Shown: one piece after another, positions 1-15,968 of the stretch
Layout: every line of letters starts with the position of its first letter
How positions within the stretch are numbered: position 1 is the first letter of the stretch
Assembly: GCA_910574865.1 (NCBI GenBank)
Contig: CAJTDN010000013.1
Span: forward strand, 62,001-126,000
Origin: Lachnospiraceae bacterium
GTDB taxonomy: Bacteria > Bacillota > Clostridia > Lachnospirales > Lachnospiraceae
DNA length: 64,000 nucleotides
Direction of reading: 5' to 3'
Notes under the pieces: generated by a model
Database searches by the model: none
The model's input: the letters and a program-made list of their open reading frames with translations, nothing else
Told to the model about the DNA's origin: nothing
Made by a program: the position numbers and the translations under genes

Positions 1-44
1 AAATTCTGGAGGGATACGCCGCGTACCTGGAATCCTTGAAATGA
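1..44 (+). CDS. C-terminal end of an upstream gene (partial)
   Basis: The frame starting at base 3 reads ILEGYAAYLESLK and stops at TGA 42-44, followed by an 81-base gap and the ribosome binding site of the next gene. The short tail looks like a normal protein end and is on the same strand as the operon that follows. The gene itself lies outside the window and cannot be identified. Confidence 0.45.
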   Translation, partial: ILEGYAAYLESLK

Positions 45-125: not shown

Positions 126-1151
126 ATGCCAAAAAGGGAAGAAATGTATAAGTTCGACGAGCAGAAGTTCTTGTTGGACGGGCTCAAGGTGTACGCGATT
201 CGCGTTTCCATCGAGGAAGCCGCGGACAGGCTGGCAGGCCGGCAGTTTTCTAACCTGGTCCTGACCGGGGTGGGTGGCACGACCGCCGAGTTGCATGCCG
301 TGCGCCGGATTGTCGAGATTTATTCGGACATTCCGGTACATTTGTTAAACGCGGCGGAAGCCCGGGCGTGCGCGGACAGGAGGATTACGAAGGATTCTTT
401 GCTCATTACCGCGTCCAAGTCGGGCGACACGAAAGAAACCGTGGAAATATGCCGGTACGCAAGGGAACTGGGGGCGACGGTGGCGTCGTTTGTGGCCACG
501 GCGGACTGTCCGCTGGCGAAAGTCTCGGACGAGGTCATCGTCTCGCCGGAAGAGGGAATGGAAAACACGTATCTGAGATTATATTTGTTTATCCTGCGGT
601 ATTTGTATCAGAAAGGGTGTTTTCCGGCGTATGAGCGGTTCGCGGACCAGATGAAACGTTTGCACCCGGAAGCGTTGCGCGTGAAGCACCGGTATGACGC
701 GACAGCGGATGAAAATACCCGCAAATATTACAAGGAACCGTATCAGATATGGATAGGGAGCGATATGGTTTTTGGTGAATTGACGCTGCTTACGATGTGC
801 GTGCTGGAGGAGATGCAGTGGATGCGAAACCGCCTGGTCAGCTCGGCGGAATTTTTCCATGGGACATTGGAACTGGTGGAGAAGGATGTCATGGTCACGC
901 TGGTGAAGGGGCTTGGCCCGTGCCGCGAGCTGGACGAGCGCGTGGAGCGTTTTTTGCAGGGACGGACGGACAAGCTGGTCGTCGTGGATCTGGAGGAGGT
1001 CAGGCTCACGGGCATTGACGAGGAGTTCCAGTACCTCCTTTCCCCGGTTTTGTTTGCCAACGTGATGGAGGGAAGATACTGCTGGAACCTGGAAAAATAT
1101 TCCGGGCACGACTTGTCCATCCGTAGGTACTACCGGCAGTTCGAGTACTGA
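126..1151 (+). CDS. Double-SIS-domain sugar-phosphate enzyme, FrlB-like deglycase
   Basis: A 341-residue protein with two SIS (sugar isomerase) domains. The first carries the TGVGGTTAE strand-loop (residues 47-55) and the phosphate-binding ASKSGDTKE loop (about 97-105). The second carries GSDMVFGELTLL (211-222) and SAEFFHGTLELVEKD (240-254). The FFHG segment and the preceding EEMQW stretch resemble fructoselysine-6-phosphate deglycase FrlB and its relatives, which cleave phosphorylated Amadori products in the cytosol. An upstream GGAGGG at 115-120 fixes the ATG. The next gene is a HAD phosphatase and a SorC regulator follows, a usual setting for a sugar-phosphate pathway. The SIS assignment is firm; the exact substrate is inference. 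An isomerase role is the alternative. Confidence 0.75.
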   Translation: MPKREEMYKFDEQKFLLDGLKVYAIRVSIEEAADRLAGRQFSNLVLTGVGGTTAELHAVRRIVEIYSDIPVHLLNAAEARACADRRITKDSLLITASKSGDTKETVEICRYARELGATVASFVATADCPLAKVSDEVIVSPEEGMENTYLRLYLFILRYLYQKGCFPAYERFADQMKRLHPEALRVKHRYDATADENTRKYYKEPYQIWIGSDMVFGELTLLTMCVLEEMQWMRNRLVSSAEFFHGTLELVEKDVMVTLVKGLGPCRELDERVERFLQGRTDKLVVVDLEEVRLTGIDEEFQYLLSPVLFANVMEGRYCWNLEKYSGHDLSIRRYYRQFEY

Positions 1152-1201
1152 CGGTTTTGGGTCTTTTGATTATGGCGTGAAAGGAATGGCGGGGAGGAAG
1201 G

Positions 1202-1990
1202 ATGAACAGGGTATTCTTTTTTGACATTGATGGCACGATATACCGTGACACGGTCGGGGTGACACAAAACACGGTAAAGGCATTTGAGCGGCTCAGGCGG
1301 CAGGGGGATTACGTGGTGTTCTCCACGGGGCGCACCACGCCCTCCATCGAGCCGGAGTTTCCAAATGTGCCATATGACGGGTATGTCGGTGGAAATGGTA
1401 CGCAGGTCGTGTTTTGTGGGCGGATTATTTTAAACATCGCCATGGATGACGGCCTTCTGAATCGAATCGTGGCCTGTCTTCGAAGGGACGGGCGGGAATT
1501 CGTGATGGAAGGGGACTGGGATTTGTATTCCGATTCCTATGACTGCAATTGTTCGACATTTGATTATTCATTTTACAAAGAAAAACTGGGAGACCGCCTG
1601 AAGCCGACAGACGCAAGGGACCGGCACGTGAACAAGATGGCCGTCCTGATTGGCAAAAGGCCGCTTGAGCTGGAAAAATATAGGGAAATATTGGACGAGG
1701 TGACGTACGTCCTTCATGAGGACGTGTGGGAGCTGGGGCCGAAGTCCTGCAGCAAGGCGAGCGGGGCTTCGGTATTATTGAAACATTTGGGCGTGTCCCC
1801 GCAGGAATGCTACGCGTTCGGGGACAGCAAAAACGACCTTGAGATATTGGAATATGTGGGACATGCCATCGCCATGGGGGATGCCTGCGAGGAAGTGAAA
1901 CGGCGGGCGTGCCTCGTGACGGATACCGTGGAAAGGGACGGCGTGCAAAAAGCCCTGGACCGGCTGGGCGTCTGGGAATGTCCGGGGTGA
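1202..1990 (+). CDS. HAD superfamily phosphatase, Cof type
   Basis: A 262-residue cytosolic haloacid-dehalogenase hydrolase of the Cof (IIB) subfamily, which dephosphorylates sugar phosphates and related metabolites. Motif I is FFDIDGT at residues 6-12 with the nucleophile and acid-base aspartates D8 and D10. Motif IV is GDSKNDLEIL near residue 207, and a conserved lysine precedes it. The cap domain lies between, which is the normal IIB layout and length. GGGAGG ends four bases before the ATG. It sits 50 bases after the SIS gene and is probably co-transcribed with it. Cof enzymes are promiscuous, so the substrate cannot be read from sequence. Confidence 0.85.
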   Translation: MNRVFFFDIDGTIYRDTVGVTQNTVKAFERLRRQGDYVVFSTGRTTPSIEPEFPNVPYDGYVGGNGTQVVFCGRIILNIAMDDGLLNRIVACLRRDGREFVMEGDWDLYSDSYDCNCSTFDYSFYKEKLGDRLKPTDARDRHVNKMAVLIGKRPLELEKYREILDEVTYVLHEDVWELGPKSCSKASGASVLLKHLGVSPQECYAFGDSKNDLEILEYVGHAIAMGDACEEVKRRACLVTDTVERDGVQKALDRLGVWECPG

Positions 1991-2055
1991 ATGAGGCACG
2001 GCCTATCGCCGCACGTATGGTGATTGGTGAGAAATGACGAAGGAGGGACGGTGTT

Positions 2056-3051
2056 TTGGCGATGCTTGACAAAGTATATGAGCAGTCATTAAATCTGATG
2101 GTCAAGGCGGCTTACGATTATTACAACGTCGGGCTGTCGCAGAGCGAGATTAGCGAACGCCTCGGAATTTCCGTCCCGACAGTTTCACGGCTGTTGAAGA
2201 AGGCGAGGGACAAGCATATCGTGGAATTTTACATCCCGAGCCAGTTCATTGACTGCATGCACCTGGAACAAGAGTTGAATGAAAAGCTGGGAATCAAGGA
2301 AGTCATTTTGTCCCCGAACCTGGAAAAAATCAGCACGGCTCTGGACGTGGAGATAAAGAAGAACGTGGCTTTGGAAGGGGCAAGGTATTTGCAGCGTGTC
2401 ATAACGAAGGAGGATGTGTTGGGAGTTGGCTGGGGACGGACGATGTATTACCTGATTCATTATCTGAACCCGAGCCAGAAGATTGACGCGTCGTTCGTGA
2501 CGCTGCATGGTAGTATCACGGAGGCGGTCAGCAACCTGGATCCCCAGATGCTGGTAGCGAGAGCGAGCATGGCGTTTGGCGGGCGCAGGCAGTACCTGGT
2601 GTCAAAGGCGTTAATCGAGAACAGGGAACGTCTGGAAAAAATCTGGAACTCGGAAAACGGAAAAAAGATGCAGGCGCGGTTCCATGACATCACGATTTCT
2701 ATCAGTGGTGTCGGCACATGGTATCCGGAACCAAAATCCCCGCTTGCCAGCGAGGAATACCTGGATGCGGGGCGTATCCGGGAACTGCAGGAAAAAGAGG
2801 TGTGCGCGGATATCGCCCTGCATTTTATTGACAGGAACGGCAAGGAATGTGAAACCGATTTGAAATACCAGACACTCACCATTGGCTTGGAGACCTATAA
2901 GAATATCCCGACCAAGGTGGTGGTCGCTTCCGGATTTGAGAAGGCGGACACCGTGCTGGCGTTGCTGAAGGGGAAACTGGTGGACGTGTTAATCATGGAT
3001 TACGCGCTGGCGGAAGCGGTGGAAAAGAGGCTGGACGAGTGCGTGCCGTGA
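2056..3051 (+). CDS. SorC/DeoR-type sugar-binding transcriptional regulator
   Basis: A 331-residue regulator. The N-terminus holds a helix-turn-helix (about residues 25-50, GLSQSEISERLGISVPTVSR) followed by a SorC-type effector domain that normally binds a phosphorylated sugar. Start choice: AGGAGG at 2041-2046 is nine bases before TTG 2056 and fifteen before ATG 2062, so the rare TTG start is favoured; the GTG at 2051 is out of frame. It lies between the HAD gene and the exporter and is the obvious candidate to control the operon in response to a pathway sugar phosphate. No operator was recognised by eye. Confidence 0.85.
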   Translation: MAMLDKVYEQSLNLMVKAAYDYYNVGLSQSEISERLGISVPTVSRLLKKARDKHIVEFYIPSQFIDCMHLEQELNEKLGIKEVILSPNLEKISTALDVEIKKNVALEGARYLQRVITKEDVLGVGWGRTMYYLIHYLNPSQKIDASFVTLHGSITEAVSNLDPQMLVARASMAFGGRRQYLVSKALIENRERLEKIWNSENGKKMQARFHDITISISGVGTWYPEPKSPLASEEYLDAGRIRELQEKEVCADIALHFIDRNGKECETDLKYQTLTIGLETYKNIPTKVVVASGFEKADTVLALLKGKLVDVLIMDYALAEAVEKRLDECVP

Positions 3052-3072
3052 GGGATTGGAAAGAGGGAAGGC

Positions 3073-3963
3073 ATGGGAGGAAAAGTGAGTGTACAAAAGA
3101 AAGCGGTGCTGGCATTGGTCTTGTGCGCGCTTTTGTGGAGCACGTCGGGATTTGTCCTGAAATCGGTGACGGCCTTGGACAGCATGCGCGTGTCCGGTTA
3201 CAGGTGTCTGATATCGTCCATTTTTTTATTGTGCGTGCAGGGAAGGCCGGTGATTCAAAAAAAGAACCGTTGGTTCTGGGTGGGGTGCGCCTCCTATGCG
3301 CTGGCTTCGTATTTAATCGTGCAGGCGAACGCGCTGACAACCGCCGCCAACGCGATTATCCTGCAATATGTGGCACCGGTGTTCGTATGCATCTTTTCGG
3401 TGGTATTCCTTCACCAGAAAATGGAGGGACACCACTTCGTGGTCATCGGGGCGGTCATTTTGGGTCTCGTGTTCTTTTTCAGGGAGTCGCTTGACATGGA
3501 CGGGGCGCATACCTTGGGAAATGTCGTGGCACTGCTGGCCGGTGTCGTGATGGCCATGCAGGCCGTGTCCGTCTGCCAGGTGCAGGATGCCAGGGCGGTG
3601 CGTTCCGTCGTGGTTATCGGCGGCATTTTGAATTTTATTTTATGCCTGCCGTTTATGAAGCACGGGGCGGTGCCGGTTTCGGATTACGTGTGGGTGTTGT
3701 TTTTGGGGATTTTCCAGCTTGGCTTGTCTTACGCGCTGTATGCGTGGGCGGTGGGACACCTGACACCGTTGGAAGTGATTTTGATTCCCGCCATAGAGCC
3801 GCTTGTCAATCCGCTGCTGACGCTGGTAATCAAGAAAGAACGGCTGACTTTCGACACGGTTATCGGCGGGGTAATCGTTGTCGGTTCCATCACGGTATGG
3901 AGCGTGTGGAAGGAAAAACGGCGGGGGAACGCGGAAAACCTAAAAGAGAGGAAAGGAAGGTGA
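3073..3963 (+). CDS. EamA/DMT-family membrane transporter
   Basis: A 296-residue protein with about ten hydrophobic segments arranged as two EamA repeats, the layout of drug/metabolite transporters in the cytoplasmic membrane. The N-terminal part reads LALVLCALLWSTSGF, typical of EamA repeat 1, and the second half ends with a short basic tail. The ATG at 3073 follows GAGGGAAGG; a GTG at 3085 with its own GGAGG four bases upstream is an alternative start. It overlaps nothing and is five bases before the next gene, so it belongs to the operon. It probably moves the substrate or an intermediate; direction and ligand are unknown. Confidence 0.8.
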   Translation: MGGKVSVQKKAVLALVLCALLWSTSGFVLKSVTALDSMRVSGYRCLISSIFLLCVQGRPVIQKKNRWFWVGCASYALASYLIVQANALTTAANAIILQYVAPVFVCIFSVVFLHQKMEGHHFVVIGAVILGLVFFFRESLDMDGAHTLGNVVALLAGVVMAMQAVSVCQVQDARAVRSVVVIGGILNFILCLPFMKHGAVPVSDYVWVLFLGIFQLGLSYALYAWAVGHLTPLEVILIPAIEPLVNPLLTLVIKKERLTFDTVIGGVIVVGSITVWSVWKEKRRGNAENLKERKGR

Positions 3964-3968
3964 GGAAC

Positions 3969-4811
3969 ATGGCAAAGCGTTTTACGCGGGAGGAAATCAA
4001 GGCGAATTTCGCGAACGTGGTGTCGCGCCACCGTCCTGTCCTGGTGACGACGGCCGGGATGGGATTGTCCGCCAAGTTCGAGCAAAAGGGCGGAACGGAC
4101 ATGGTTGCCGTGAGCAATGCCAGTGTCCTGGCAATGGACGGGCATAGTCCGGTTATTTCCATCATGCCGTATGGAAATGCCAACGATTTGGTGCTTGGCA
4201 CGATGAAAAGAATCGTTTCCCAGGTGGAGGCGGTTCCGCTGATGGCGGGAATCTGCGCGACGGATCCGACCACGGATCTGGTTCCGTTTTTAAAGGAACT
4301 GGGGTTTTACAAGGCGTCCGCCGTGTTTAACACGCCGAGCGTGGGAATGTTTGAAGGGGATTTTAAAAGGATGCTGGAGAGGGCGGAAATCTCGTACGAA
4401 CAAGAGGTTGCCGCCCTGTCGGAGGCTTCGGCGCGGGGATTTTACACGATGGGGATGGCATATACGACGGAGCAGGCGGAGCTGATGGCACGGGCGGGGG
4501 TGGACGCGGTGATTTGCAACTTCGGGTTCACCATTGACCCGGGGGAAGAGGTGGTCGCTTATTTGACCGAGGGTTTCACGGCGGAGAAGATGCAGAGGAT
4601 GCGAAGGGCGGTGCGCGCCGTCAACCCGGAAATGCTGGTCCTGGTACATGGGGGGCTCTTGAATTCGCCGGAGGCGGCAAGGCGGATATTGGCGGATACC
4701 GGGGCGGCGGGAATGCTGCTGGCCTCGGCCGTGGAACGGATACCCGTGCAGGAGCCGCTGATGCGGGCCGTGCAGGAATTTAAGAATGTCACGTTGGAAA
4801 GGAGAGTGTGA
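3969..4811 (+). CDS. TIM-barrel protein of the PEP-hydrolase-like family, copy A
   Basis: A 280-residue protein starting MAKRFTREEIK. It belongs to the TIM-barrel family (Pfam PEP_hydrolase, COG5564) that forms the C-terminal half of plant and fungal Tm-1-type proteins. Diagnostic segments are TTAGMGLSAKFEQKGG near residues 26-41, LAMDGHSP, VPLMAGICATDP, and LVLVHGGLLNSPE near the C-terminus. The start is ATG 3969 with GGAAGG at 3955-3960; the upstream frame is open but overlaps the transporter and has no match. It is the first of three paralogues around the Tm-1-like gene and ends one base before the next. Despite the family name the reaction is not established here. Confidence 0.8.
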   Translation: MAKRFTREEIKANFANVVSRHRPVLVTTAGMGLSAKFEQKGGTDMVAVSNASVLAMDGHSPVISIMPYGNANDLVLGTMKRIVSQVEAVPLMAGICATDPTTDLVPFLKELGFYKASAVFNTPSVGMFEGDFKRMLERAEISYEQEVAALSEASARGFYTMGMAYTTEQAELMARAGVDAVICNFGFTIDPGEEVVAYLTEGFTAEKMQRMRRAVRAVNPEMLVLVHGGLLNSPEAARRILADTGAAGMLLASAVERIPVQEPLMRAVQEFKNVTLERRV

Positions 4812-4812
4812 A

Positions 4813-5664
4813 ATGGCCAGACGTTATACGAGGGAGCAGGTCTTGAAACGGATTGAGGAGCAGCGAAAACAGCATCATCCCATCGTGATATCCGGCGCGG
4901 GAACGGGAATTTCCGCCAAATTTGCCGAGCGGGGCGGGGTGGACATGATTGGTATTTATAATTCCGGGCGGTTCCGCATGGACGGGCACAATTCGGGATG
5001 CGGGCAGATGTATTTCAGCAGCGCCAACGAGGAAATACTGGCACTCGCGAAGCGGATCATGCCGGTCATCAAGGAGGTCCCGGTCATTGCCGGAATCGCG
5101 GGAAACGACCCGTCCGTTGACATGGAGACGTATTTTCGTATCTTGCAGTTCTATGGTTTTTCGGCCGTCATGAATTTCCCGACATGCGGGGATTTTTTGG
5201 GTTTTTTACAGACCACGATGGAGGAAATGGATGAATACGGAATCGGGTTCAAGCAGGAGGCAGAGAGCCTGGCCCTGGCCCATGAGATGGGACTGTTCAC
5301 GCTGGGATACGCGTTTACCCTGGAGCAGGCGGAAATGCTGGGACAAGCGGGAATCGACATCCTTATCTGCCACCTGGGACTGACGCAGGGTGGCGTGGGC
5401 GGGCCGGCGGCGGGAGACCGCTCGGTGGATTTGGCGGAAGCGGCCAGAACCGTGGGGAAGTTCGAGGAGGCGGCCAGGAAATATAACCCGGACATTTTGC
5501 TGATGGCGCACGGCGGGCCGATTTCCACTCCCGAGGACACCCGTTACATATACGCGCACACGAATTCCATCGGTTTTCTGGGAGCATCGAGTATCGAGCG
5601 GATTCCGGTGGAACAGCCGATTTTGGAGGCGGTGCGGCAATTCAAGGACATTATGATTGAATAA
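4813..5664 (+). CDS. TIM-barrel protein of the PEP-hydrolase-like family, copy B
   Basis: A 283-residue paralogue of the preceding gene, starting MARRYTREQVLKRIEEQ. It has the same landmarks: GAGTGISAKFAERGGVDMI, FRMDGHNSGCGQ, VPVIAGIAGNDP, LICHLGLTQGG and LMAHGGPISTPED. It is the closest of the three copies to the canonical family sequence. AAAGGAG at 4798-4803 precedes ATG 4813, which begins one base after the stop of copy A, so the two are translationally coupled. TIM-barrel proteins of this type are usually found next to, or fused to, a Tm-1-like protein, which is the next gene. Reaction unknown; a lyase or hydrolase acting on a small carbonyl acid is a reasonable inference. Confidence 0.85.
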   Translation: MARRYTREQVLKRIEEQRKQHHPIVISGAGTGISAKFAERGGVDMIGIYNSGRFRMDGHNSGCGQMYFSSANEEILALAKRIMPVIKEVPVIAGIAGNDPSVDMETYFRILQFYGFSAVMNFPTCGDFLGFLQTTMEEMDEYGIGFKQEAESLALAHEMGLFTLGYAFTLEQAEMLGQAGIDILICHLGLTQGGVGGPAAGDRSVDLAEAARTVGKFEEAARKYNPDILLMAHGGPISTPEDTRYIYAHTNSIGFLGASSIERIPVEQPILEAVRQFKDIMIE

Positions 5665-5676
5665 GGAGGGATGAAA

Positions 5677-7017
5677 ATGGATAGGCCGAACATTATCGTG
5701 GCGGGAATATTGAACACGAAGGGCGAGACCGTCCGCTATATCGCGGAGCGGGTAAAGGAAGCCGGGGGAAACCCGCTTGTCATGGAACTGAGCCTGGGGA
5801 AGGAGTGCGGCTGGGCGGACATTTCTCTGGGGGAACTGTTAAAATCCGTGGGGAAGACGGCACAGGACGTGTTTTCCCTTGACCGGGCGGGCGCGTGCGA
5901 ACTCGTGACGAAAGGGGCGGTCCGGACGGTTTTGCGGCTGTACGGAGAAGGAAAGGTGCAGGGGGTCATTGCCACGGGCGGAAGCATGGGGACGAGTATC
6001 GCGTGCACGATGATGCGGGCGTTGCCAATCGGCGTGCCGAAAATGATGTTGTCGACGGACGCGTCCGGCGAGGTGAGCGTGCATGTCGGGACGCGTGACA
6101 TTTGCATGCTGTACCCGATCGCGGAGACGGGGCTGAACCGGATCACCAGACGGATTTTGAATTACGCGGCGGCGGGAATCGTCGGGATGGCGTCGGCACC
6201 GAAGGTGGTGGAGACGCAGAACAGGCCGCTGGTCGGCTGCATGATGTTCGGGGTGACAACCCCGTGCGTGCTCCGCGCGCAAAAGCACATGGAGGAGCAA
6301 GGCTACGAGGTCATCGTGAACCATTGTACGGGCGCGGGCGGGCAAAGCATGGAGGAAATGATGGAGGAAGGGCACATCGTGGGAATGCTCGACCTCACGA
6401 CGGAGGAAGTGACGGCGGACGTGTTTGACACGAAGTTCCAGCGTTCGGGCCCGGCGAGGCTTAAAACGGCGGCCAAAAAAGGCATCCCGCAGGTTGTCAG
6501 CGTGGGCGGGAGCGAGCTGATGCTGTACGAGGGCGTGGGGGACGTGCCGGAACATTTGATGGCGGAAATTAAAAGCGGGGTGCGGAAACTGTACAACCAT
6601 AACCCGGCGGTGGCCTGCGTGGCCATCACGGAGGAGGAGACGCGTATGTTTGCCCGGGAATTTGCCCGGAGGCTGGCTCCGGCGACGGCACCTACGGTAA
6701 TCTGCATCCCCATGCGCGGCTGGGGAGGGTGCGATATCGCGGCCCCGAACCTGGAACTTGGCTGGGCGGGGGACGGCGCGGGGCCGACCTGGATTGCCGG
6801 TGGAAACCCGGCACATTCCCGCAGGAGCGAGGTCATGCTGGAGGTGCTGCAGGAGGAACTGCCCCGCAAGGAAAACCTGGAGGTGCTGGTGGTGGACAAG
6901 CATATCAACGAGCCCGAATTTGCCGACATTGCGGCGGAGCTTTTGACGGAAATGCTGGACGGGACGTGGAAGCGGGGGTCGCATGCCGGACTTCCATACG
7001 TGCGGAGCTTGTTTTGA
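5677..7017 (+). CDS. Tm-1-like ATP-binding domain protein (UPF0261)
   Basis: A 446-residue protein of the UPF0261/Tm-1-like ATP-binding family. The N-terminus has IIVAGILNTKGETVRYIAE and a glycine-rich GVIATGGSMGTSIA loop near residue 95; the C-terminal half contains GVTTPCV, VSVGGSELM and RGWGGCDIAAPN. Length is normal for the unfused bacterial form. AAGGAGG at 5663-5669 sits seven bases before ATG 5677, so this start is preferred over ATG 5671, which touches the Shine-Dalgarno. In plant Tm-1 the same domain precedes a TIM-barrel domain in one chain; here it is flanked by three separate TIM-barrel genes, implying a joint function. The bacterial reaction is unknown to me. Confidence 0.88.
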   Translation: MDRPNIIVAGILNTKGETVRYIAERVKEAGGNPLVMELSLGKECGWADISLGELLKSVGKTAQDVFSLDRAGACELVTKGAVRTVLRLYGEGKVQGVIATGGSMGTSIACTMMRALPIGVPKMMLSTDASGEVSVHVGTRDICMLYPIAETGLNRITRRILNYAAAGIVGMASAPKVVETQNRPLVGCMMFGVTTPCVLRAQKHMEEQGYEVIVNHCTGAGGQSMEEMMEEGHIVGMLDLTTEEVTADVFDTKFQRSGPARLKTAAKKGIPQVVSVGGSELMLYEGVGDVPEHLMAEIKSGVRKLYNHNPAVACVAITEEETRMFAREFARRLAPATAPTVICIPMRGWGGCDIAAPNLELGWAGDGAGPTWIAGGNPAHSRRSEVMLEVLQEELPRKENLEVLVVDKHINEPEFADIAAELLTEMLDGTWKRGSHAGLPYVRSLF

Positions 7018-7035
7018 TGGAAAGAGGGATGTTTT

Positions 7036-7854
7036 ATGATAAAGCGAGACGCGGTGTTGGGCACGCTTTACGACTGCGTGGACAGCGGCAACACGATTTT
7101 TGTTTTCGGGGCGGGAAGCGGGCTTTCGGCGCGGGCGGCACATATGGCGGGCGTGCATCTGATTTCCGTCTATTCCACGGCGATTTTGCGGATGAAAGGG
7201 TTGAATTCCCTGACCTGCGCGCTTCCCGTCGCTAACGCGAACCAATTGTTGCTGGATGAGGGCGGGGTTATTGTGAGGCAGGCCGGATGCACTCCCTGCA
7301 TCGCGGGAATCGCGGCGCAGGACCCGTTCCATCCCGTGGGGGAAATGTTGGACAAAGTGGAGAAAATGGGATTTTGCGGCGTGTCAAACGAGCCGTTTGC
7401 CGGAATTTACGGGAGCTGGTTCGCTGACTTGCTGGAAGAATACGGCATGGGCTTTAGCGCGGAGCTGGACATGTTAAGGCAGGCCGCGGAGAGGGGACTT
7501 CTCACGATGGGCTGGGCGTTTGACGAGGAACAGGCGTGCCGCCTGGTGGAAAACGGGATTGACATTGTCGGCGTGATGGTGATGGACGGGCCCGGAAAGT
7601 ACTCGGCGGGAAAGACGGAGGAGGAACGGCTGCGGGAGGCGGTTCTGGAAGTGAGGAAGATGTGCCAGGCCGCATTGAAAATCAACCCGCAGGCTATTTT
7701 AATCACGCACGGCGACCCGTTTTATGACGTGAAGACGGCGACGGAGTCGTTAATCAGCACGGGGGCGGTGGGATATGCCTCCGGATCAAGCGGGGAGAGG
7801 CTGCCCTCTATGGACGGTATCGTGAAAACGTGCCAGGAGTTTTTAAACATGTGA
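7036..7854 (+). CDS. TIM-barrel protein of the PEP-hydrolase-like family, copy C
   Basis: A 272-residue third paralogue, more diverged than copies A and B. It keeps FGAGSGLSARAAHMAGVHLI, LRMKGLNSL, TPCIAGIAAQDP and ILITHGDPFYD. The lysine of the SAKF motif is replaced by arginine (SAR) and the G-G-V-D-M strand has changed, so it may have another substrate or only a structural role. GAAAGAGGG at 7020-7028 precedes the ATG. It is 18 bases after the Tm-1-like gene. Its stop codon overlaps the first bases of a long palindrome, so the first transcript of the operon may end or be processed here. Confidence 0.8.
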   Translation: MIKRDAVLGTLYDCVDSGNTIFVFGAGSGLSARAAHMAGVHLISVYSTAILRMKGLNSLTCALPVANANQLLLDEGGVIVRQAGCTPCIAGIAAQDPFHPVGEMLDKVEKMGFCGVSNEPFAGIYGSWFADLLEEYGMGFSAELDMLRQAAERGLLTMGWAFDEEQACRLVENGIDIVGVMVMDGPGKYSAGKTEEERLREAVLEVRKMCQAALKINPQAILITHGDPFYDVKTATESLISTGAVGYASGSSGERLPSMDGIVKTCQEFLNM

Positions 7855-7928
7855 TGATACCAGGGTTCCAAGGCCATGCGTTCCATGCTTGTATGGAAAA
7901 GCATGGATTTGGAACCCGTCGGTATCAT
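7854..7928. repeat. Long intergenic palindrome (REP/MITE-like), copy 1
   Basis: Outer arms ATGATACC (7854-7861) and GGTATCAT (7921-7928) enclose GGGTTCCAA/TTGGAACCC, CCATGC/GCATGG and TTCCAT/ATGGAA, leaving a six-base loop GCTTGT. Almost the whole 75 bases pair. The same core TTCCATGCTTG(C/T)ATGGAA recurs at 23985-24019 and 54159-54191, so this is a dispersed element. It lies right after the stop of TIM copy C with no U-run. Confidence 0.85.
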
Positions 7929-7951
7929 AGATTATCAGGAGGATGATAAAG

Positions 7952-8278
7952 ATGGTGGTATTCCAGATTATGTATCCGTATGCGGAAAATTACAAGTTCG
8001 ACATGGATTATTATGTAAACAACCACCTCGTGGCGGCGGGGAAATTATTAGGGGATTCCTGCCTGAAGGTGGAAGTGACAAAAGGATTTAAGGAGTTTTA
8101 CCCGGACACGACCCCGTTTTTCGCGGTTGTCGCGAGGCTGGCGTTTGAAAGCGAGGAGGCGTTTTTCGCGGCATTCACGGACGAGGTGGACGCGTTTTTG
8201 ATGGAGGACATCCCGAAATTCACGGACATCGCGCCGGTGTGGCAGCTGGAGGAAGTCGTGTACCAAGGCGGGAAGTAG
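7952..8278 (+). CDS. EthD-family small protein
   Basis: A 108-residue protein starting MVVFQIMYPYAENYKFDMDYY. The N-terminal strand followed by F-D-M-D-Y-Y and H-L is typical of EthD-type dimeric alpha/beta-barrel proteins, whose members act on small metabolites but are rarely characterised. CAGGAGG at 7936-7942 is nine bases before ATG 7952; the ATG at 7943 directly abuts the Shine-Dalgarno and is unlikely. It lies between the palindrome and the RuBisCO-like gene, inside the presumed operon. A monooxygenase, isomerase or dehydratase-like role is possible; sequence alone does not decide. Confidence 0.7.
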   Translation: MVVFQIMYPYAENYKFDMDYYVNNHLVAAGKLLGDSCLKVEVTKGFKEFYPDTTPFFAVVARLAFESEEAFFAAFTDEVDAFLMEDIPKFTDIAPVWQLEEVVYQGGK

Positions 8279-8561
8279 CGCGATAGGAATTTTCTGCCCG
8301 TCGGTATGGGATATAGGGACGGGACACGCCACGGCGTGCGGGGGGAGTGAAAATTTTTTCGTACCCCGGATGAAAATAATTTCAATATTGTGGGTGCGCG
8401 GGGGTGATTTTATAATTGGGTCATAAGGCGGCGCGGGAATCCGAATCATGAAAGACGGGGATATCCCGGGCGCGGCATTATAAGGCGGACTGCAAGATGT
8501 GCCATTTCCTGATGGCGGGAAGGCGGTTCACAAGAATACTATTTTTGAAAGGGGATAAGAA
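8279..8561. other. Intergenic region before the RuBisCO-like gene
   Basis: This 283-base gap is the largest inside the first operon. It holds a possible promoter (8388-8416) and A+T-rich tracts between G+C-rich stretches. I see no convincing small gene. The gap suggests that the RuBisCO-like gene can be transcribed separately from the genes upstream. Confidence 0.5.
8388..8416 (+). promoter_or_regulatory. Possible promoter for the RuBisCO-like gene
   Basis: TATAAT at 8411-8416 is a perfect -10; TTGTGG at 8388-8393 with a 17-base spacer is a weak -35. It lies about 145 bases before the start codon, leaving a long leader. The weak -35 would fit activation by a regulator, which is inference. 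Confidence 0.4.
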
Positions 8562-9878
8562 ATGTTTATTGATCCGATTATCATGCAATTACCGGAGGAA
8601 ATTGACCGCGAGCGGTTCGTGGTCGCCACGTACTATGCGGCGGGGAAGGCGGGGACGAACATGGTGAAATTCGCGGCCGCGCTGGCAATCGAGCAGACGT
8701 GCGGGACGTGGCTGAAGGTGCCGGGGGAGACCCCGGAAGTGAGGGAACGCGCGATTGGCCGCGTGCTCGGCGTGTACGAGGCGCCGGCGTACCAGATTGG
8801 CGTGCCAGAAGACGTGGGGGAGCGGCATTTTATCATCCGCATCGCCTACCCGTGGCACAATTTCGGGGCACAGTTTTCCATGATGTTGTCAACCGTGATT
8901 GGTAATATTTCCAGCTCGGGCAAGGTGAAGCTGCTGGATCTGGAATTCCCGAAAAGCTTTCTGGATAATTTCCAGGGACCGAAATTCGGGGTGCAAGGAA
9001 TCCGGGAGATTTTAGGCGTGTACGACCGGCCGCTTTTGAACAACATGATTAAGCCGTGCATCGGGCTCACCCCGGAAAAGACGGCGGAACTGGCGTATGA
9101 GGCGGCCGTCGGCGGGGTGGACGTGATTAAGGATGACGAGCTCGTGTGCGACCCGTCGTTCTGCCGCCTGGAAGACCGCGTGAAAGCGGTCATGGAGGCC
9201 ATCAAGCGGGCGGACGAGGTGAAAGGTGAAAAGACGTTGTACGCGTTCAACATCACGGCTCCGGCGTTGCAGATGCGGGAGAACGCGTATAAGGCGATTG
9301 AGGCGGGGGCCAACGCGCTGATGGTTAATTACGCGTCGGTCGGTCTGGACACGGTGCGGCTCATCACGGAAGACCCAAATGTAAATGTCCCGGTTCTGGC
9401 GCATTCGGATTACACGGGCGCGCAGTATGAGAGCCCGTGGTCGGGACTTTCCGCCACGCTGATTGGCGCGAAGATGCCGCGTCTGGCCGGCCTGGACATG
9501 ATTATCGGCCTGACGCCTTACGGCAAGTTCCCGATGATGATGGACACGTTCGTCAACATGGGATTGCAGATGCTCGCGCCGATGCGGCACATAAAGCCGG
9601 TGTTCCCGATGCCGGGCGGCGGGACCACGCAGGGGCACATCGAGGACGTGGTGAAAAAATTCGGCAACGACGTGATGATTGCGGCCGGCGGCGCGATTCA
9701 CGGGCACCCGATGGGGCCGGCGGCAGGCGCGAGGGCGTTCCGCCAGGGAATCGACGCGGTGTGCAAAGGACGGTCACTGGCCGAGGCGGCGAAGGAGCAC
9801 GAGGAGCTGGGTGCGGCGGTGGAATGCTGGGGCATTTACACGGAGGACAAGACGGGGCTGTTCGATCTGAAAGGCTGA
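8562..9878 (+). CDS. RuBisCO-like protein (form IV)
   Basis: A 438-residue cytosolic protein with the large-subunit RuBisCO fold. Equivalents of active-site residues can be placed: E44 and T49-W50 (AIEQTCGTW), N115 (IGNIS), K164 (IKPCIGLTP), carbamylatable K190 with D192/E193 (GGVDVIKDDEL), H281 (LAHSDYTG), K322 (TPYGKF), and two Gly-rich phosphate loops (PGGGTTQGH 351-359, AAGGAIHGH 374-382). Two residues essential in true RuBisCO are changed: K177 to C166 and R295 to S282, so carboxylation of ribulose bisphosphate is unlikely. Relatives act in methionine salvage (enolase, MtnW) or D-apionate use (decarboxylase/transcarboxylase). AAAGGGG precedes the ATG. The neighbours suggest a new or apionate-like sugar-acid pathway. 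Confidence 0.92.
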   Translation: MFIDPIIMQLPEEIDRERFVVATYYAAGKAGTNMVKFAAALAIEQTCGTWLKVPGETPEVRERAIGRVLGVYEAPAYQIGVPEDVGERHFIIRIAYPWHNFGAQFSMMLSTVIGNISSSGKVKLLDLEFPKSFLDNFQGPKFGVQGIREILGVYDRPLLNNMIKPCIGLTPEKTAELAYEAAVGGVDVIKDDELVCDPSFCRLEDRVKAVMEAIKRADEVKGEKTLYAFNITAPALQMRENAYKAIEAGANALMVNYASVGLDTVRLITEDPNVNVPVLAHSDYTGAQYESPWSGLSATLIGAKMPRLAGLDMIIGLTPYGKFPMMMDTFVNMGLQMLAPMRHIKPVFPMPGGGTTQGHIEDVVKKFGNDVMIAAGGAIHGHPMGPAAGARAFRQGIDAVCKGRSLAEAAKEHEELGAAVECWGIYTEDKTGLFDLKG

Positions 9879-9966
9879 CATGTGAGGAAAAAGGCCGCGG
9901 GCGGTTGAAAAGCGGTTATCCGTATGTTTTTGAAAGGCTGGCTCATGTGAAACGAGGCCGCGGGCG
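9868..9966 (+). repeat. Imperfect 36-base direct repeat at the end of the RuBisCO-like gene
   Basis: Unit 1 (9868-9903) and unit 2 (9931-9966) both run TGAAAGGCTG, then a CATGTGA segment, then AGGCCGCGGGCG. Unit 1 includes the last codons and stop of the RuBisCO-like gene. The second copy is noncoding, so the 3' end of the gene was probably duplicated locally. Confidence 0.6.
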
Positions 9967-10011
9967 ACGGCCGGTACATGAATGATAACGATGAAAGAGA
10001 GGTAAAGGATT

Positions 10012-10509
10012 ATGGAATTTATGGATGCCGTATGCGCGAGGAGAAGCGTGAGGAAATTTACGGAGAAAAAAGTGGAAAGGGAATTAATCCAGGAAATTCT
10101 GAAGGCGGGAATGGCAGGGCCGACCGCGCTTGGCAAGAATCCCTGGCAGTTTTTGGTGATGGACGAGTCCGGGAGCGTGGAAAAATTGAAAGAAGCCCTT
10201 CCGTATGGACAGTATAATTGCACGGCCGCAATCGTGGTGATGGGTGACGTGGAAATCAGCAAGCACTACTGGGCGGTGGATGCCTTAATCGCGGCTACCA
10301 ATATCGTGAACGCGGCGGCGGACAAGGGGGTCGACAGCGTGTGGATTGGTCTTTACCCGTTTGAAAAGGAATGGGTGGTGGTGCAGGAAAAGGTCGGATT
10401 GCCGGAAAACGTGAAACCGGCATGTGTCATCGAACTGGGCTACGGCGAGGAAAAGCTGGAGGCGCGCACGCAGTACATGGAAGAGCGGGTTCATTGGAAC
10501 AAGTATTGA
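10012..10509 (+). CDS. Nitroreductase-family flavoprotein
   Basis: A 165-residue nitroreductase-fold protein that would bind FMN as a dimer and use NAD(P)H. The N-terminus MEFMDAVCARRSVRKFTEKKV carries the classical RRSVRKF FMN-phosphate motif; AGPTALGKNPWQFLVM is the second flavin loop; IELGYGEEK near the end is the usual closing strand. Length is typical of the short clostridial form. AGAGAGG at 9996-10002 sits nine bases before the ATG. It lies 133 bases after the RuBisCO-like gene and before an FAD/NAD reductase, which could supply electrons. The physiological substrate is unknown. Confidence 0.85.
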   Translation: MEFMDAVCARRSVRKFTEKKVERELIQEILKAGMAGPTALGKNPWQFLVMDESGSVEKLKEALPYGQYNCTAAIVVMGDVEISKHYWAVDALIAATNIVNAAADKGVDSVWIGLYPFEKEWVVVQEKVGLPENVKPACVIELGYGEEKLEARTQYMEERVHWNKY

Positions 10510-10612
10510 GGCGTACATGTCTGCTGGCGCAAATAGTTGAAAAAAGGGACAAGAGTGGCGGCACGTGGTGTAACACGGGCGTGCGCGACCCTTGGCAAGG
10601 AGGTAAAAGAAA

Positions 10613-11395
10613 ATGTTCAAGGTATATAAAAACGTGGAAATGACGAAGGAAGGGTACTTGTTTGGTATCGAGGCGGCGGAAGCGTCGCGCCAGTGCGCGC
10701 CGGGGCAATATTTTGAACTGGCGATGCCGGGGGATGAACATAGGATTCCGGTCGTGCTGACGGACATCCTTCCCGACCGTGGCATTATCAAAGTGGTGTT
10801 CCGTCCCATAAATGACACGACAAGAGCCATGGCGGTCATGGAGGACGGCGGCGAAGTGGAGGGCGTGTTCGGCCCGTACGGCAGGAAGGCCCCGTTTCTG
10901 GACGAGGAGTGGGAAGGAAAGCAGGTGCTTGTCATCGCGGAAGATTTGGCCGGGGCGCAGGCTTACATGATAATCCATGATTTGAAGAAAAAAGGCGCGG
11001 CGGTGGATGCCGTCGCCGGCGGGCGGACGAAGGGGTGCCTTTATTTGTCCGAGTTCACGGGTGAATTGTGCAGGGATTATTTGAACTTGTCCGAAGACGG
11101 GACACAAGGCGAGACCGGAACAATTTGCGGAAAAATAGATGACATTCTGGCCAAAACGGATTATAATATGTGCGTGGTCATGGGAAGCGTGGAGATTTTG
11201 CAGGTGGTGGCCAAAAAGACAGCCATGAAAAATATCCCGACGTGGATTTCTGTGGATTCGATGGTCACATCGAAGGACGGGTACCGTTTCCTTGACCATG
11301 TGATGGTAAAAGGGGAGCGCGTGGAAATCCGCGAGCAGGGCACGATGATGAAAGCCGACGGGGTAGATTTTGAGGAATTGAAGGGCCAGCTTTAA
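10613..11395 (+). CDS. FAD/NAD(P)-binding reductase lacking the Fe-S cluster motif
   Basis: A 260-residue protein resembling the PyrK/NfnA/sulfide dehydrogenase beta-type reductases. PGQYFELAMPG (about residues 30-40) is the FAD-domain segment and GVFGPYGRKAPF the flavin loop; QVLVIAEDLAGAQAYMI is a degenerate NAD-binding strand (family norm G-x-G-x-A). The C-terminal cysteine-rich 2Fe-2S loop of the family is absent: there is no C-x4-C-x2-C pattern. AAGGAGG at 10598-10604 gives a clear start. It probably passes electrons from NAD(P)H to the neighbouring nitroreductase or to a pathway enzyme. Function by family is moderate, role is inference. Confidence 0.65.
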   Translation: MFKVYKNVEMTKEGYLFGIEAAEASRQCAPGQYFELAMPGDEHRIPVVLTDILPDRGIIKVVFRPINDTTRAMAVMEDGGEVEGVFGPYGRKAPFLDEEWEGKQVLVIAEDLAGAQAYMIIHDLKKKGAAVDAVAGGRTKGCLYLSEFTGELCRDYLNLSEDGTQGETGTICGKIDDILAKTDYNMCVVMGSVEILQVVAKKTAMKNIPTWISVDSMVTSKDGYRFLDHVMVKGERVEIREQGTMMKADGVDFEELKGQL

Positions 11396-11420
11396 AGAAA
11401 GGCAGGCAGATTGCGTGAAC

Positions 11421-11450
11421 GCGCCAAGGCGACGTATGCCTTGGCGTGCG
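11421..11450 (+). promoter_or_regulatory. Hairpin in the HPr leader
   Basis: CGCCAAGGC (11422-11430) and GCCTTGGCG (11438-11446) form a perfect nine-base-pair stem with a seven-base loop, followed by another GC pair. There is no U-run, so it is more likely an RNA-stability or processing element than a terminator. It ends about 12 bases before the Shine-Dalgarno of the HPr gene. Confidence 0.5.
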
Positions 11451-11472
11451 CCTTATACGAGGAGGAATAAAA

Positions 11473-11748
11473 ATGTACTGTAAATCGACGAAGGTCGTCA
11501 ACGCGACGGGGCTGCATGCGCGTCCTGCCGCCGATTTCGTGAAGGTCTCGAAAAAATTCGATTCGAAGATAACCGTGACGAGGGAAAATGACCCGAAGAA
11601 CGTCAAAGCCAATGGAAAGTCCCTGATTTCCATTCTCGCGCTATGCGCGACGAAGGATTCCGTGATACATATCGCTGCCGAAGGGGCGGACGAGGTGGAA
11701 GCGGTGGAAACGCTGGCCGCGCTGGTGGATTCGGGTCTGGGAGAATAA
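11473..11748 (+). CDS. HPr-family phosphocarrier protein
   Basis: A 91-residue HPr-like phosphocarrier of the sugar phosphotransferase system. NATGLHARPAADF holds the phosphorylated histidine H15 and R17. The regulatory serine is at S50 in GKSLISIL (S46 in standard numbering), shifted by a short insertion; the usual I-M-G-V-M segment after it is L-I-S-I-L, so control by HPr kinase may differ. GAGGAGGAA precedes ATG 11473. It is three bases before the enzyme I gene. It may be the general HPr of the cell or a dedicated one; its place at the end of a sugar-pathway operon favours the latter weakly. Confidence 0.88.
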   Translation: MYCKSTKVVNATGLHARPAADFVKVSKKFDSKITVTRENDPKNVKANGKSLISILALCATKDSVIHIAAEGADEVEAVETLAALVDSGLGE

Positions 11749-11751
11749 ATC

Positions 11752-13590
11752 ATGGATAAGACACAAAACGAAAGCATCAGCTTGAAGGGCAACCCGGTTT
11801 CGCGGGGAATCGCCGCCGGCAGGGTGTTCTGGTACGAGCCTTTCGTACCAGATATAAAGGAATGCCATATCGAGGCGGCAGGCACGGAAGCGGCCTTAAG
11901 AAAATATGAGGAGGCGGTCGCCGCCGCCAGGAAGGAACTGCAGGATGTTTATGAGTCCCTGAAAGAGGAGGACGAGCATAGGGCGGGAATTTTTCTGGCG
12001 CACATGGAAATATTGGAAGACGAGATGCTGGACGAGGAAATCCGTTCGGCCATCGGCGAATCCCTATCGGAACCCGGGTGGGCGGCCGAGCGCGTGTATT
12101 CTAATTATGCGAAACTGTTAGGAGAGATGGAGGACGAGCTGATCCGCGAGCGGGCGGCGGACATCATGGATGTCAAGAACCGGCTGCTCCGGTGCTTCCA
12201 AGGAGTCCCGCAAAGGAATTTGTCGAGGCTTCCGGGAGCGGTCATCGTGGCTGCGCATGACTTGCTGCCGTCGGATACCGCGACGATAGACCGTGAAAAC
12301 GTGCTGGCCATCGTGACGGAAGCGGGAGGGGCGACCTCGCACAGCGCGATTCTGGCGAAGGGGTTCGGCATCCCCGCGCTGCTCGGCATAAAGGGGCTTA
12401 AAGACGCGCTGGGGAGAGAAGAGGCGGCCACCGCCGCCTGCGAGGTGCCGGGTGAAATGAGGGCGGCCACCGCTGTCGGAAACGTATTGGATGAAGCGGG
12501 GGCGGGCGTTGCCGTCGTGGATGCGTTGGACGGCGTGCTTATCGTGAATCCGGACAAAGACACGCGGGAACATTATTTCAAGCGTCTGGGGAAGTGGGAA
12601 GAGGAACAAAGGCTGACGCGGGAATTTTTGCGGCGGGAACCGCTGACGAAGGACGGCGTGAGAATCGAAATCGGCCAGAACATTGGCTCGGCCGCTCGCG
12701 AGGCGTTGGCCGCGAGCGGGTATACGGATTTTGTCGGGCTGTTCCGGACGGAGTTCTTGTTCATGGAAAAGGAAAGCATGCCCACGGAGGAAGAGCAGTT
12801 CGTGGCGTATTGCAAGGTGCTAAAGGCGTACGGCGGCCGTCCGGTAACCGTGCGCACGCTCGACATAGGGGGCGACAAGACACTGCCGTATCTCGAACAG
12901 GAGAAGGAAGAGAACCCGTTTCTGGGAAACCGCGCGCTCCGGCTCTGTTTCGAAAATCCGTGTCTTTTCAAGACGCAGCTTCGCGCCTTGTACCGGGCTT
13001 CCGTCCATGGAAAGCTTCAGATTATGCTTCCCATGGTGGGCGGCATGGATGACATTTTGCGGGCGAAGCAGATTATCGGGGACGTGAAAAATGAACTGGC
13101 GGCCGAGGGCATCGCCATCTCGCAGGACGTGAAGGTGGGCATCATGATTGAAATCCCCTCCATCGCCCTGCTGGCCGACGTGGTGGCGAAAGAGGTGGAT
13201 TTTGCTTCCATCGGGACGAATGATTTGTGCCAGTATTTGCTGGCGGCGGACCGCATGAATCCGGCGGTGGCATCCTATTACCAAAGTTACCACCCGGCCT
13301 TGTACCGGTTAATCGGGTACGTGGCGGACGAGTTTCAAAAGGCGGGAAAGCCCTTGTGCGTGTGCGGGGAGCTGGGCGGTGACAGGCTGACGGTTCCGGT
13401 GCTCGTGGGCCTGGGCCTGAGAAAGCTGTCCATGGGGGGCTCATCCGTTTGCGAGGTCAAACGTGTGTTGTCGAAAATGACGGTGGCAAGGATGGAAGAG
13501 CTGGCGGCGAAGGTGAAAGCGTGCAAAACGGATCAGGAAGTGCGGGATTTGTGTGAGAAATATATGGAAAATACGTTGGGGAATGATTGA
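11752..13590 (+). CDS. ptsI: PTS enzyme I (phosphoenolpyruvate-protein phosphotransferase)
   Basis: A 612-residue enzyme I that transfers phosphate from phosphoenolpyruvate to HPr. The phosphohistidine is H197 in GGATSHSAILAKG; the PEP-binding TIM barrel carries LFRTEFLFM, SIGTNDLCQYLLAADR and the catalytic cysteine C538 in VCGELGGD. The family is usually about 570-575 residues; the extra length is mainly at residues 222-262, an Ala/Glu-rich stretch after the phosphohistidine domain. It begins three bases after HPr and is the second half of a pts pair. Because its substrate is phosphoenolpyruvate, proximity to three PEP-hydrolase-like TIM-barrel genes is notable, but a functional link is only inference. 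Confidence 0.92.
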   Translation: MDKTQNESISLKGNPVSRGIAAGRVFWYEPFVPDIKECHIEAAGTEAALRKYEEAVAAARKELQDVYESLKEEDEHRAGIFLAHMEILEDEMLDEEIRSAIGESLSEPGWAAERVYSNYAKLLGEMEDELIRERAADIMDVKNRLLRCFQGVPQRNLSRLPGAVIVAAHDLLPSDTATIDRENVLAIVTEAGGATSHSAILAKGFGIPALLGIKGLKDALGREEAATAACEVPGEMRAATAVGNVLDEAGAGVAVVDALDGVLIVNPDKDTREHYFKRLGKWEEEQRLTREFLRREPLTKDGVRIEIGQNIGSAAREALAASGYTDFVGLFRTEFLFMEKESMPTEEEQFVAYCKVLKAYGGRPVTVRTLDIGGDKTLPYLEQEKEENPFLGNRALRLCFENPCLFKTQLRALYRASVHGKLQIMLPMVGGMDDILRAKQIIGDVKNELAAEGIAISQDVKVGIMIEIPSIALLADVVAKEVDFASIGTNDLCQYLLAADRMNPAVASYYQSYHPALYRLIGYVADEFQKAGKPLCVCGELGGDRLTVPVLVGLGLRKLSMGGSSVCEVKRVLSKMTVARMEELAAKVKACKTDQEVRDLCEKYMENTLGND

Positions 13591-13679
13591 CAAGCGGACT
13601 CAAAAGGTATAAGATGCTTGAAGCCGGGGAAGTGCTGGCATTCCTGTGTCAGCGCGGATACCGCGATAGAATATGGAAA

Positions 13680-15278: not shown

Positions 15279-15599
15279 CTATAAAATATCGCGGTATTCT
15301 CTGGCACCATACAAAATTCGCATAATAATAACTTCGCGTTTTTCTGGATTGGGCAGGTAAAAAACCATATAATTTCGTATGATTAGTTTTCGGTAGCCTT
15401 TGGATGCAAGGAGTGAGTCATCAACTTCAAACCCAATCAAAGGATGCGTTTTTAGACGGTTGATGGAGGTTTCCATTTCGTTCAAAAGCTTTTCAGCAGC
15501 CTGTGGGTTGTGTAATGTTTCACTTATATAGGAATCAATTTCGTCTAAATCTTGATATGCCAGTGGCGTATATCGGATTTGATAAAGTTTACTTTCCAT
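15279..15599 (-). CDS. RelE/ParE-family toxin
   Basis: A 106-residue toxin of the RelE/ParE superfamily. It starts MESKLYQIRYTPLAYQDLDEI and contains LINEM-like helix LLNEMETSINRLKTHPLIGFEV and the C-terminal YLPNPEKREVIIMRILYGAREYRDIL, the usual R-I-L-x-G-x-R signature. Members either cut mRNA on the ribosome or poison gyrase. It overlaps the antitoxin by eleven bases, the standard type II arrangement, with the antitoxin upstream. A terminator follows its stop. It is A+T-rich next to G+C-rich flanks, suggesting acquisition. Confidence 0.88.
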   Translation of the reverse strand: MESKLYQIRYTPLAYQDLDEIDSYISETLHNPQAAEKLLNEMETSINRLKTHPLIGFEVDDSLLASKGYRKLIIRNYMVFYLPNPEKREVIIMRILYGAREYRDIL

Positions 15600-15852
15600 G
15601 TTTTTTCCTTAATCGTTGGAATATATCGTCACCATCAAGGAGAGGGACGGCATTTTTTAATTGGCTTTCGGCGGCATCAAGTTTCCTATATATATTTAAT
15701 AATCCCAATTGCTTTTCATAGGTATCCATGCTCATTATGACTAAATGCCCGGTTCCGTTTTTGGTAATGAAAACCGGTTCTTCTGTTTGATAGCATAATT
15801 CTGAAATTTTCCTTGTATTTTCTAAATCTGTCATTGGACAAATGGTTGGCAT
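15589..15852 (-). CDS. Phd/YefM-family antitoxin
   Basis: An 87-residue antitoxin starting MPTICPMTDLENTRKISELC. The segment EEPVFITKNGTGHLVIMSMDTYEK is the hallmark of Phd/YefM antitoxins, whose N-terminus binds the operator and whose C-terminus wraps the toxin. AGGGAG (plus-strand CTCCCT at 15861-15866) sits eight bases before the ATG; an earlier ATG at 15885 lacks a site. It is the first gene of the pair with the RelE toxin and would repress its own promoter. A second, related Phd protein lies at 38648-38914. Confidence 0.9.
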   Translation of the reverse strand: MPTICPMTDLENTRKISELCYQTEEPVFITKNGTGHLVIMSMDTYEKQLGLLNIYRKLDAAESQLKNAVPLLDGDDIFQRLRKKHGK

Positions 15853-15968
15853 GTTATCAGCTCCCTTCTGCATATAGAATACCACGAAGACAAGTGATAA
15901 TTCAAGTCTTAATTTTAAAATAAAGTAACATATAGAATGGCGTTGCTGTTCGGATTCGTGCTTTCAGG

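Follow-up and report, generated by a model that had tools for sequence, protein, structure and literature searches.

In a 64,000-nucleotide stretch of DNA from Lachnospiraceae bacterium (assembly GCA_910574865.1, contig CAJTDN010000013.1, positions 62,001 to 126,000; hereafter the window), a gene for a RuBisCO-like protein (RLP; 8562..9878, + strand) shares an operon with three PEP_hydrolase TIM barrels (PEPH1, 3969..4811; PEPH2, 4813..5664; PEPH3, 7036..7854; all +) and a UPF0261/Tm-1-like protein (5671..7017, +). We find that these three families form a conserved, apparently undescribed RLP module, which in the window lies inside a lineage-specific operon of the phosphotransferase system (PTS). 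An earlier note on this DNA had proposed an undescribed-looking, conserved pathway around the RLP. For the core of the locus this is borne out: the core recurs, and a link between RLPs and Tm-1-like/PEPH proteins was not found in the literature searched, which mostly did not cover subscription journals (e.g. the D-apiose paper). The pairing of Tm-1-like proteins with PEPH is already known. According to the accessible part of PMC5028733, UPF0261 and TBST/PEP_hydrolase are fused in Tm-1 of land plants and co-evolve in prokaryotes and fungi, and the biochemical role of both families is open. The window carries both families as adjacent genes, and the apparently new part is the link to the RLP: neither this partnership nor an RLP-tied PEPH lineage is mentioned in that part of the text.

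The RLP, PEP_hydrolase and Tm-1-like genes recur together

We scanned a genome collection with five close RLPs and used the best 80 of 321 relatives, which gave 79 loci. Of these loci, 31 have a PEPH gene no more than 8 kb from the RLP, and 28 have both PEPH and Tm-1-like genes in that range, with varying gene order. The lineages that bear the core include Lachnospiraceae and Oscillospiraceae metagenome-assembled genomes, Ca. Formimonas, Desulfoscipio, Syntrophomonadaceae, Thermoanaerobacterales and a Caldisericota genome; no sugar uptake genes were seen beside the module in the loci of the Syntrophomonas relatives.

The association also holds at the level of whole genomes, where our Fisher tests ignore relatedness. 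In the Syntrophomonas order, PEPH is present in 15/15 genomes with a clade RLP (at least 50 % identity to a Syntrophomonas RLP) and in 3/48 others, the 48 including three weak RLP matches (30-32 % identity), one of which has PEPH. In the window's family the corresponding figures are 8/17 and 6/282 when five weak RLP matches are excluded from the 17, or 9/22 and 5/277 when all 22 RLP genomes are taken together, and PEPH is adjacent to the RLP in six genomes (G000, G015, G035, G110, G133, G271). Among 29 genomes chosen for a surveyed RLP without local PEPH, 8 carry PEPH elsewhere, in one case beside a second RLP (L154).

The genome counts bear on one possible origin of the RLP substrate, namely salvage of methylthioadenosine or 5'-deoxyadenosine via ketose-1-phosphates made by MtnA. 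An MtnA-family gene (TIGR00524) is indeed present in 26 of 29 genomes with both RLP and PEPH. However, in the Syntrophomonas order MtnA is found in 15/15 genomes with a clade RLP and 43/48 without (p = 0.33), in the window's family in 8/17 and 75/282 (p = 0.09), and in 11 of 13 RLP genomes selected for having no PEPH nearby, while Lactonifactor, which has the whole operon, lacks it. As MtnA is about equally common without the RLP, we rejected this salvage route as the substrate source and consider it very improbable. In four genomes of the window's family (G149:C3, G080:C13, G258:C26, G256:C99), more distant RLP-like matches (29-33 % identity) have an MtnA-family gene at a distance of about 1-7 kb; in this they differ from the window's clade, and the loci are probably of the methionine-salvage type.

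The RLP has lost the second phosphate site

The window RLP has the RuBisCO N- and C-domains (PF00016 191.5 bits, PF02788 45.7 bits) with four residues essential to ribulose-1,5-bisphosphate carboxylase (K177, R295, H327 and S379) replaced, which places it in form IV; C166, S282 and I315 stand for the first three. It retains E60, T65, W66, N123, K175, K201, D203, E204, H294, K334, G380, G381, G403 and G404. The protein thus shares the fold family and most catalytic residues with RuBisCO forms I-III, but differs in the four replacements and in that no phosphoribulokinase is found among the annotated operon genes. Judging from its residues, it is not a ribulose-1,5-bisphosphate carboxylase. Over 93 rows of its clade, from which three proteins of odd length were excluded, W66, K175, K201, D203, E204 and H294 are invariant, E60 and K334 are each kept in 86, N123 in 92 and S379 in 13; K177 is Cys in all, and R295 and H327 occur in none. 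Two of the three alignments exclude, for their odd length, the RLPs of L065, L081 (first copy) and L114.

No named NCBIfam equivalog model claims the window RLP. The nearest is the MtnW model PRK09549 (359 bits against a cut-off of 409; a Syntrophomonas RLP reaches 395.5); scores also stay below the cut-off for the second MtnW model (TIGR03332, 302 against 513.6), form III (277 against 497) and the OiaX model (NF042437, 218.7 against 700). In a quick tree of 101 rows with long branches, the protein falls inside a mostly anaerobe clade, apart from OiaX and form I, and long branches connect MtnW and a Vibrio RLP to the clade near its base. With MtnW, the 2,3-diketo-5-methylthiopentyl-1-phosphate enolase, it has in common a metal site of carbamylatable Lys, Asp and Glu, the loss of the P2 residues and, often, a phosphatase nearby. 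It differs in scoring under the family cut-off, in keeping E60, N123 and K334, and in its neighbours, which are PTS, Tm-1-like and PEPH genes; no mtn genes were found among the 14 operon genes in the window and five genes upstream.

Going by the roles of these residues in RuBisCO, the P1 phosphate site and the metal/carbamate site are kept and the second phosphate (P2) site is gone. We infer from the alignment that the substrate is a ketose with one phosphate and an uncharged far end. The loss of R295 would argue against an acid group at that end. The kept E60, N123 and K334 may leave room for CO2 chemistry, and the residues for plain enolisation are likewise kept.

Tm-1-like/PEPH genes and kinase or PTS genes are seldom found together beside RLPs

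The 79 scan loci, 15 loci from the window's family and the window together make 95 RLP loci. In these, PEPH, Tm-1-like, FGGY and RLP genes were scored by tblastn (FGGY within 8 kb), and PTS (enzyme I or gat-type EIIC), phosphatase, SorC and GlpO/A genes were scored as present in the locus from blastp clusters. The PTS was assigned by hand for the window and the Lactonifactor locus (L046), the mannose-type EIICD and EIIB were sought separately, and an archaeal 922-aa enzyme I-like protein was not counted as PTS. Sister RLPs without PEPH or Tm-1-like genes adjoin FGGY kinases, or a gat-type PTS with enzyme I and HPr. Their other partners are GlpABC-like (one GlpA above the PRK11101 cut-off) or GlpO-like dehydrogenases, glycerol-1-phosphate-dehydrogenase-like enzymes and class II aldolases. 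FGGY or PTS genes are present at only 2/37 loci with PEPH or Tm-1-like genes, compared with 40/58 loci with neither (p = 2e-10, relatedness ignored), and GlpO/A-like genes at 0/37 and 17/58, respectively. In one subclade of seven rows (L031, L034, L036, L039, L040, L042, L044), every locus carries Tm-1-like, PTS or FGGY genes, and never more than one of the three. Because Tm-1/PEPH and FGGY/PTS genes are so rarely found together near RLPs, we read Tm-1/PEPH as a kinase substitute; that the pair fills the kinase's place is our best guess and the simplest reading of the pattern. At two loci (L047, L081), GlpABC-like genes stand between two RLPs that belong to different subclades; a HAD gene and a gat-type PTS come next, and enzyme I and HPr lie upstream.

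From the observed genes, co-occurrence, residue pattern and exclusion pattern we infer the following substrates, reactions and step order. The Tm-1-like/PEPH pair would most likely deliver a phosphorylated substrate by an ATP-dependent, two-component reaction, in the slot otherwise held by a sugar kinase or PTS. The RLP would bind the mono-phosphorylated ketose via its old P1 phosphate site and, with Mg and a carbamylated lysine, take the proton from C3 to give an enediolate, which would either be re-protonated, with a carbonyl shift or epimerisation, or lose CO2. The products would then pass to sugar-phosphate isomerases, aldolases or a phosphatase (of the HAD type in the window). That the locus is a catabolic operon, fed by a PTS and assembled around a conserved anaerobe module of RLP, PEPH (usually two) and Tm-1-like protein, working in this manner, is a tentative reading to which we give somewhat less than an even chance. 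Two observations weigh against the pair filling the kinase's place: the window and Lactonifactor hold both a PTS and Tm-1/PEPH, and are thus exceptions to the exchange, and phosphatase families, of three unrelated kinds (HAD, PHP and ComB-like), are present at 23/33 loci with both PEPH and Tm-1-like genes and at 11/62 others. More doubtful is the fuller proposal that Tm-1-like/PEPH might be a new two-component ATP-dependent enzyme phosphorylating sugars or ketones, and feeding anaerobe RLPs that act on mono-phosphorylated ketoses, possibly with uptake or release of CO2.

The phosphatases would fit an anaerobic counterpart of MtnW-MtnX, in which the RLP enolises a 2,3-diketo- or 2-keto-1-phosphate, the phosphatase dephosphorylates the product, and cleavage or hydration of the dicarbonyl falls to the Tm-1-like/PEPH proteins, which replace the O2-dependent dioxygenase. 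Such a scheme agrees with MtnW being the nearest named model and with a UPF0261 protein having been crystallised with the ketone acetovanillone (title of 9mpy); our literature search, which took in the accessible parts of PMC11837543 and PMC8612281, found no paper on this protein (Saro_1862/9mpy). On the other hand, three Tm-1-like loci (L039, L042, L031) are without those phosphatase clusters and instead carry TpiA/RpiB-family genes, which require a phosphorylated product. In addition, the single MtnW aligned lacks E60, N123 and K334, mostly kept in the window's clade, and the barrel resembles phosphonopyruvate hydrolase in fold no more than it does indole-glycerol-phosphate synthase/triose-phosphate isomerase (IGPS/TIM). 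We regard this counterpart as possible, yet doubtful.

The TpiA/RpiB-family genes point in another direction. OiaX, the 3-oxo-isoapionate-4-phosphate decarboxylase of D-apiose catabolism, is a catabolic RLP with a mono-phosphorylated substrate. By decarboxylating the phosphate of a branched or 3-oxo acid, an RLP of this kind could yield a tetrulose phosphate, and isomerases like TpiA and RpiB would convert that to erythrose-4-phosphate. TpiA and RpiB families stand beside the RLP at 6/7 loci of the seven-row subclade, an Amidohydro_2-cluster gene (a lactonase candidate) at three of them (L039, L042, L044), and K334, which OiaX keeps, is found in 86/93 clade rows. For the one RpiB checked, the D-erythrulose-4-phosphate isomerase model is the second match (132 bits, cut-off 240), but the top match, above its cut-off, is ribose-5-phosphate isomerase B (143.5 against 135). 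The seven-row subclade has itself lost E60 and K334. The window RLP scores far under the OiaX cut-off, and in the two OiaX proteins aligned R295 is kept and N123 missing, whereas the clade shows the opposite; in the tree both proteins fall outside the clade (on long branches). Moreover, neither a DUF1537 kinase nor TpiA/RpiB-type isomerases are found among the annotated genes of the window operon. We consider an OiaX-like pathway unlikely.

The barrels beside RLPs form lineages of their own

All three barrels of the window exceed the PF09370 gathering score of 33.8 by far (PEPH1, 221 bits; PEPH2, 294 bits; PEPH3, 219 bits), and about 1, 12 and 18 bases separate the successive genes PEPH1, PEPH2, Tm-1-like and PEPH3 (start codons as called). 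In a quick tree of 104 rows, 4 of them artefacts, RLP-linked barrels separate from the barrels of RLP-free loci, with 5 label changes against a shuffled mean of 29. PEPH2 belongs to the RLP-linked lineage that usually directly precedes the Tm-1-like gene, PEPH1 joins the same group on a long branch, and PEPH3, also on a long branch, lies near barrels found 3' of Tm-1-like genes elsewhere. The "PEPH" of L034 and an outlying group of four tree rows are clustering artefacts, probably joined via PEPH-AraC fusions. The three paralogues do not appear to be dead copies, as all retain the alignment-invariant columns.

A fold search with a structure model (PEPH2, predicted local distance difference test score 89) gave the fold of phosphate-binding barrels. 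It did not single out PEP hydrolysis, and we rejected 'PEP hydrolase' as the true activity. The Tm-1-like protein has the Tm-1 fold, both UPF0261 domains being above the gathering score, and profile comparison gave no support for homology of its N-domain to PurE. A relationship of Tm-1/PEPH to the acetovanillone kinase HpeHI was also rejected: HpeHI, in the accessible part of its description, is of ATP-grasp/swivel type, the mark of two-component small-molecule dikinases, in which an ATP-grasp component works with a swivel-domain component bearing the catalytic His, and Pfam matches here are to UPF0261 and PEP_hydrolase only.

PEPH and Tm-1-like genes also occur without RLPs. At two such loci the barrel is fused to an AraC-type helix-turn-helix (L142:8621-9808, - strand, HTH_18 72.9 bits; L150:6251-7441, + strand, by eye), and, going by this domain composition, it is also used as a sensor there. 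One locus (L146, G085:C1:1164000-1183000) has six PEP_hydrolase and two Tm-1-like genes with an apparent ribose-type ATP-binding cassette (ABC) transporter and a short-chain dehydrogenase/reductase (SDR); at three others (L142, L143, L149), the genes adjoin a 627-aa aryl-sulfate sulfotransferase lookalike and a DASS-type transporter (by eye). The neighbours of plasmid-borne PEPH (6 of 237 matching records) are ABC transporters and cupin, SRPBCC or oxidoreductase genes, with no single pathway.

The surrounding operon is lineage-specific

The earlier note had counted thirteen same-strand genes at 126..13590. The + strand and the families guessed from the letters stand, but there are 14 genes and the operon begins 5' of the window. 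On the same contig, upstream, lie a divergent SDR gene, EIICD (one gene, mannose family), EIIA, EIIB and a deoC-like aldolase gene, whose 3' end occupies 1..44 (+; L026 15364-16044; TIGR00126 175.3 bits, cut-off 117.3). The window then continues on the + strand with a SIS-domain protein distantly related to the fructoselysine-6-phosphate deglycase FrlB (126..1151; 70.7 bits, cut-off 430), a HAD-IIB (Cof-type) phosphatase (1202..1990; TIGR00099 150.7, cut-off 137), a SorC/DeoR-type regulator with a sugar-binding domain (2056..3051) and an EamA/DMT-family exporter (3073..3963), the latter two identified by profile search. After PEPH3 comes a small EthD-family protein (7943..8278; TIGR02118 58.9 bits, cut-off 30.5). 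The RLP is followed by a nitroreductase-family flavoprotein (10012..10509; profile search), a PyrK/NfnA-like FAD/NAD-binding reductase (10613..11395; PRK06222 118 bits, cut-off 220; no Pfam match), HPr (11446..11748, start possibly at 11473; profile search) and PTS enzyme I (11752..13590; TIGR01417 540 bits, cut-off 342). With EIIA, EIIB, EIIC and EIID upstream and HPr and enzyme I at the far end, the mannose-family PTS is complete, and this PTS operon supplies HPr and enzyme I itself. The upstream PTS makes the sugar-phosphate setting suggested earlier likely.

Among the loci examined, the full gene order was found elsewhere only in Lactonifactor longoviformis (L046/G133), with enzyme I displaced. 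There, the SDR gene is preceded by enzyme I and by a regulator that contains PRD and sigma-54-activator domains. The order then runs SDR, EIICD, EIIA, EIIB, DeoC, SIS, HAD, SorC, EamA, two PEPH, Tm-1-like and PEPH, and after these two EthD, RLP, nitroreductase, reductase and HPr. Identities are 55-88 % within the window span (29 % for the second EthD copy) and 68-85 % for the upstream genes. Over all 95 RLP loci, SIS, EamA, nitroreductase and mannose-PTS EIIB genes occur at 2 (the window and Lactonifactor), EthD at 3 and DeoC at 4; a SorC-cluster gene is present at 43/79 scan loci. Conserved adjacency across genera, the check set beforehand, is thus seen for RLP, PEP_hydrolase and Tm-1-like genes and fails for the outer genes, and the idea of the whole gene set as one pathway is not supported in that form: for the outer genes only the window and Lactonifactor genomes serve as evidence, and the whole set is no widespread pathway. 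The rarity of these genes would also be expected if unrelated catabolic cassettes adjoined by chance in the window, the outer genes perhaps being a separate Amadori- or amino-sugar module. The repetition of the whole order in Lactonifactor and the joint recurrence of RLP, PEPH and Tm-1-like genes across Bacillota lineages and a Caldisericota genome argue otherwise, and we judge chance assembly improbable. At another locus (L048), RLP (84-85 % identical), two PEPH and EthD genes lie behind a branched-chain-type ABC transporter and RidA-family and M29-like genes; no PTS and no Tm-1-like gene were found in that locus.

A promoter and terminator scan gave 20 promoter-like and 20 terminator-like sites, where shuffled sequences gave 10.0 and 17.2, respectively, and was not used. 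About 5-6 kb before the operon (L026:1-6552), recombinase- and relaxase-like genes mark a mobile element (by eye). After the operon come a MatE gene (13587-15032), two small overlapping genes whose translations resemble, by eye, a ParE/RelE-type toxin and an antitoxin (15279-15885, - strand), and a gene for a protein with CHASE2 and adenylate/guanylate cyclase domains (24075-25907, + strand).

Significance

Few functions of RLPs are known (PMC7325909, accessible part). The recurring set of partners, the RLP-tied PEPH lineage and the exchange with kinases and PTS join two questions, that of the function of these RLPs and that of the function of Tm-1/PEPH, into one. For gut Bacillota and Syntrophomonas relatives, the module would represent an additional carbohydrate pathway.

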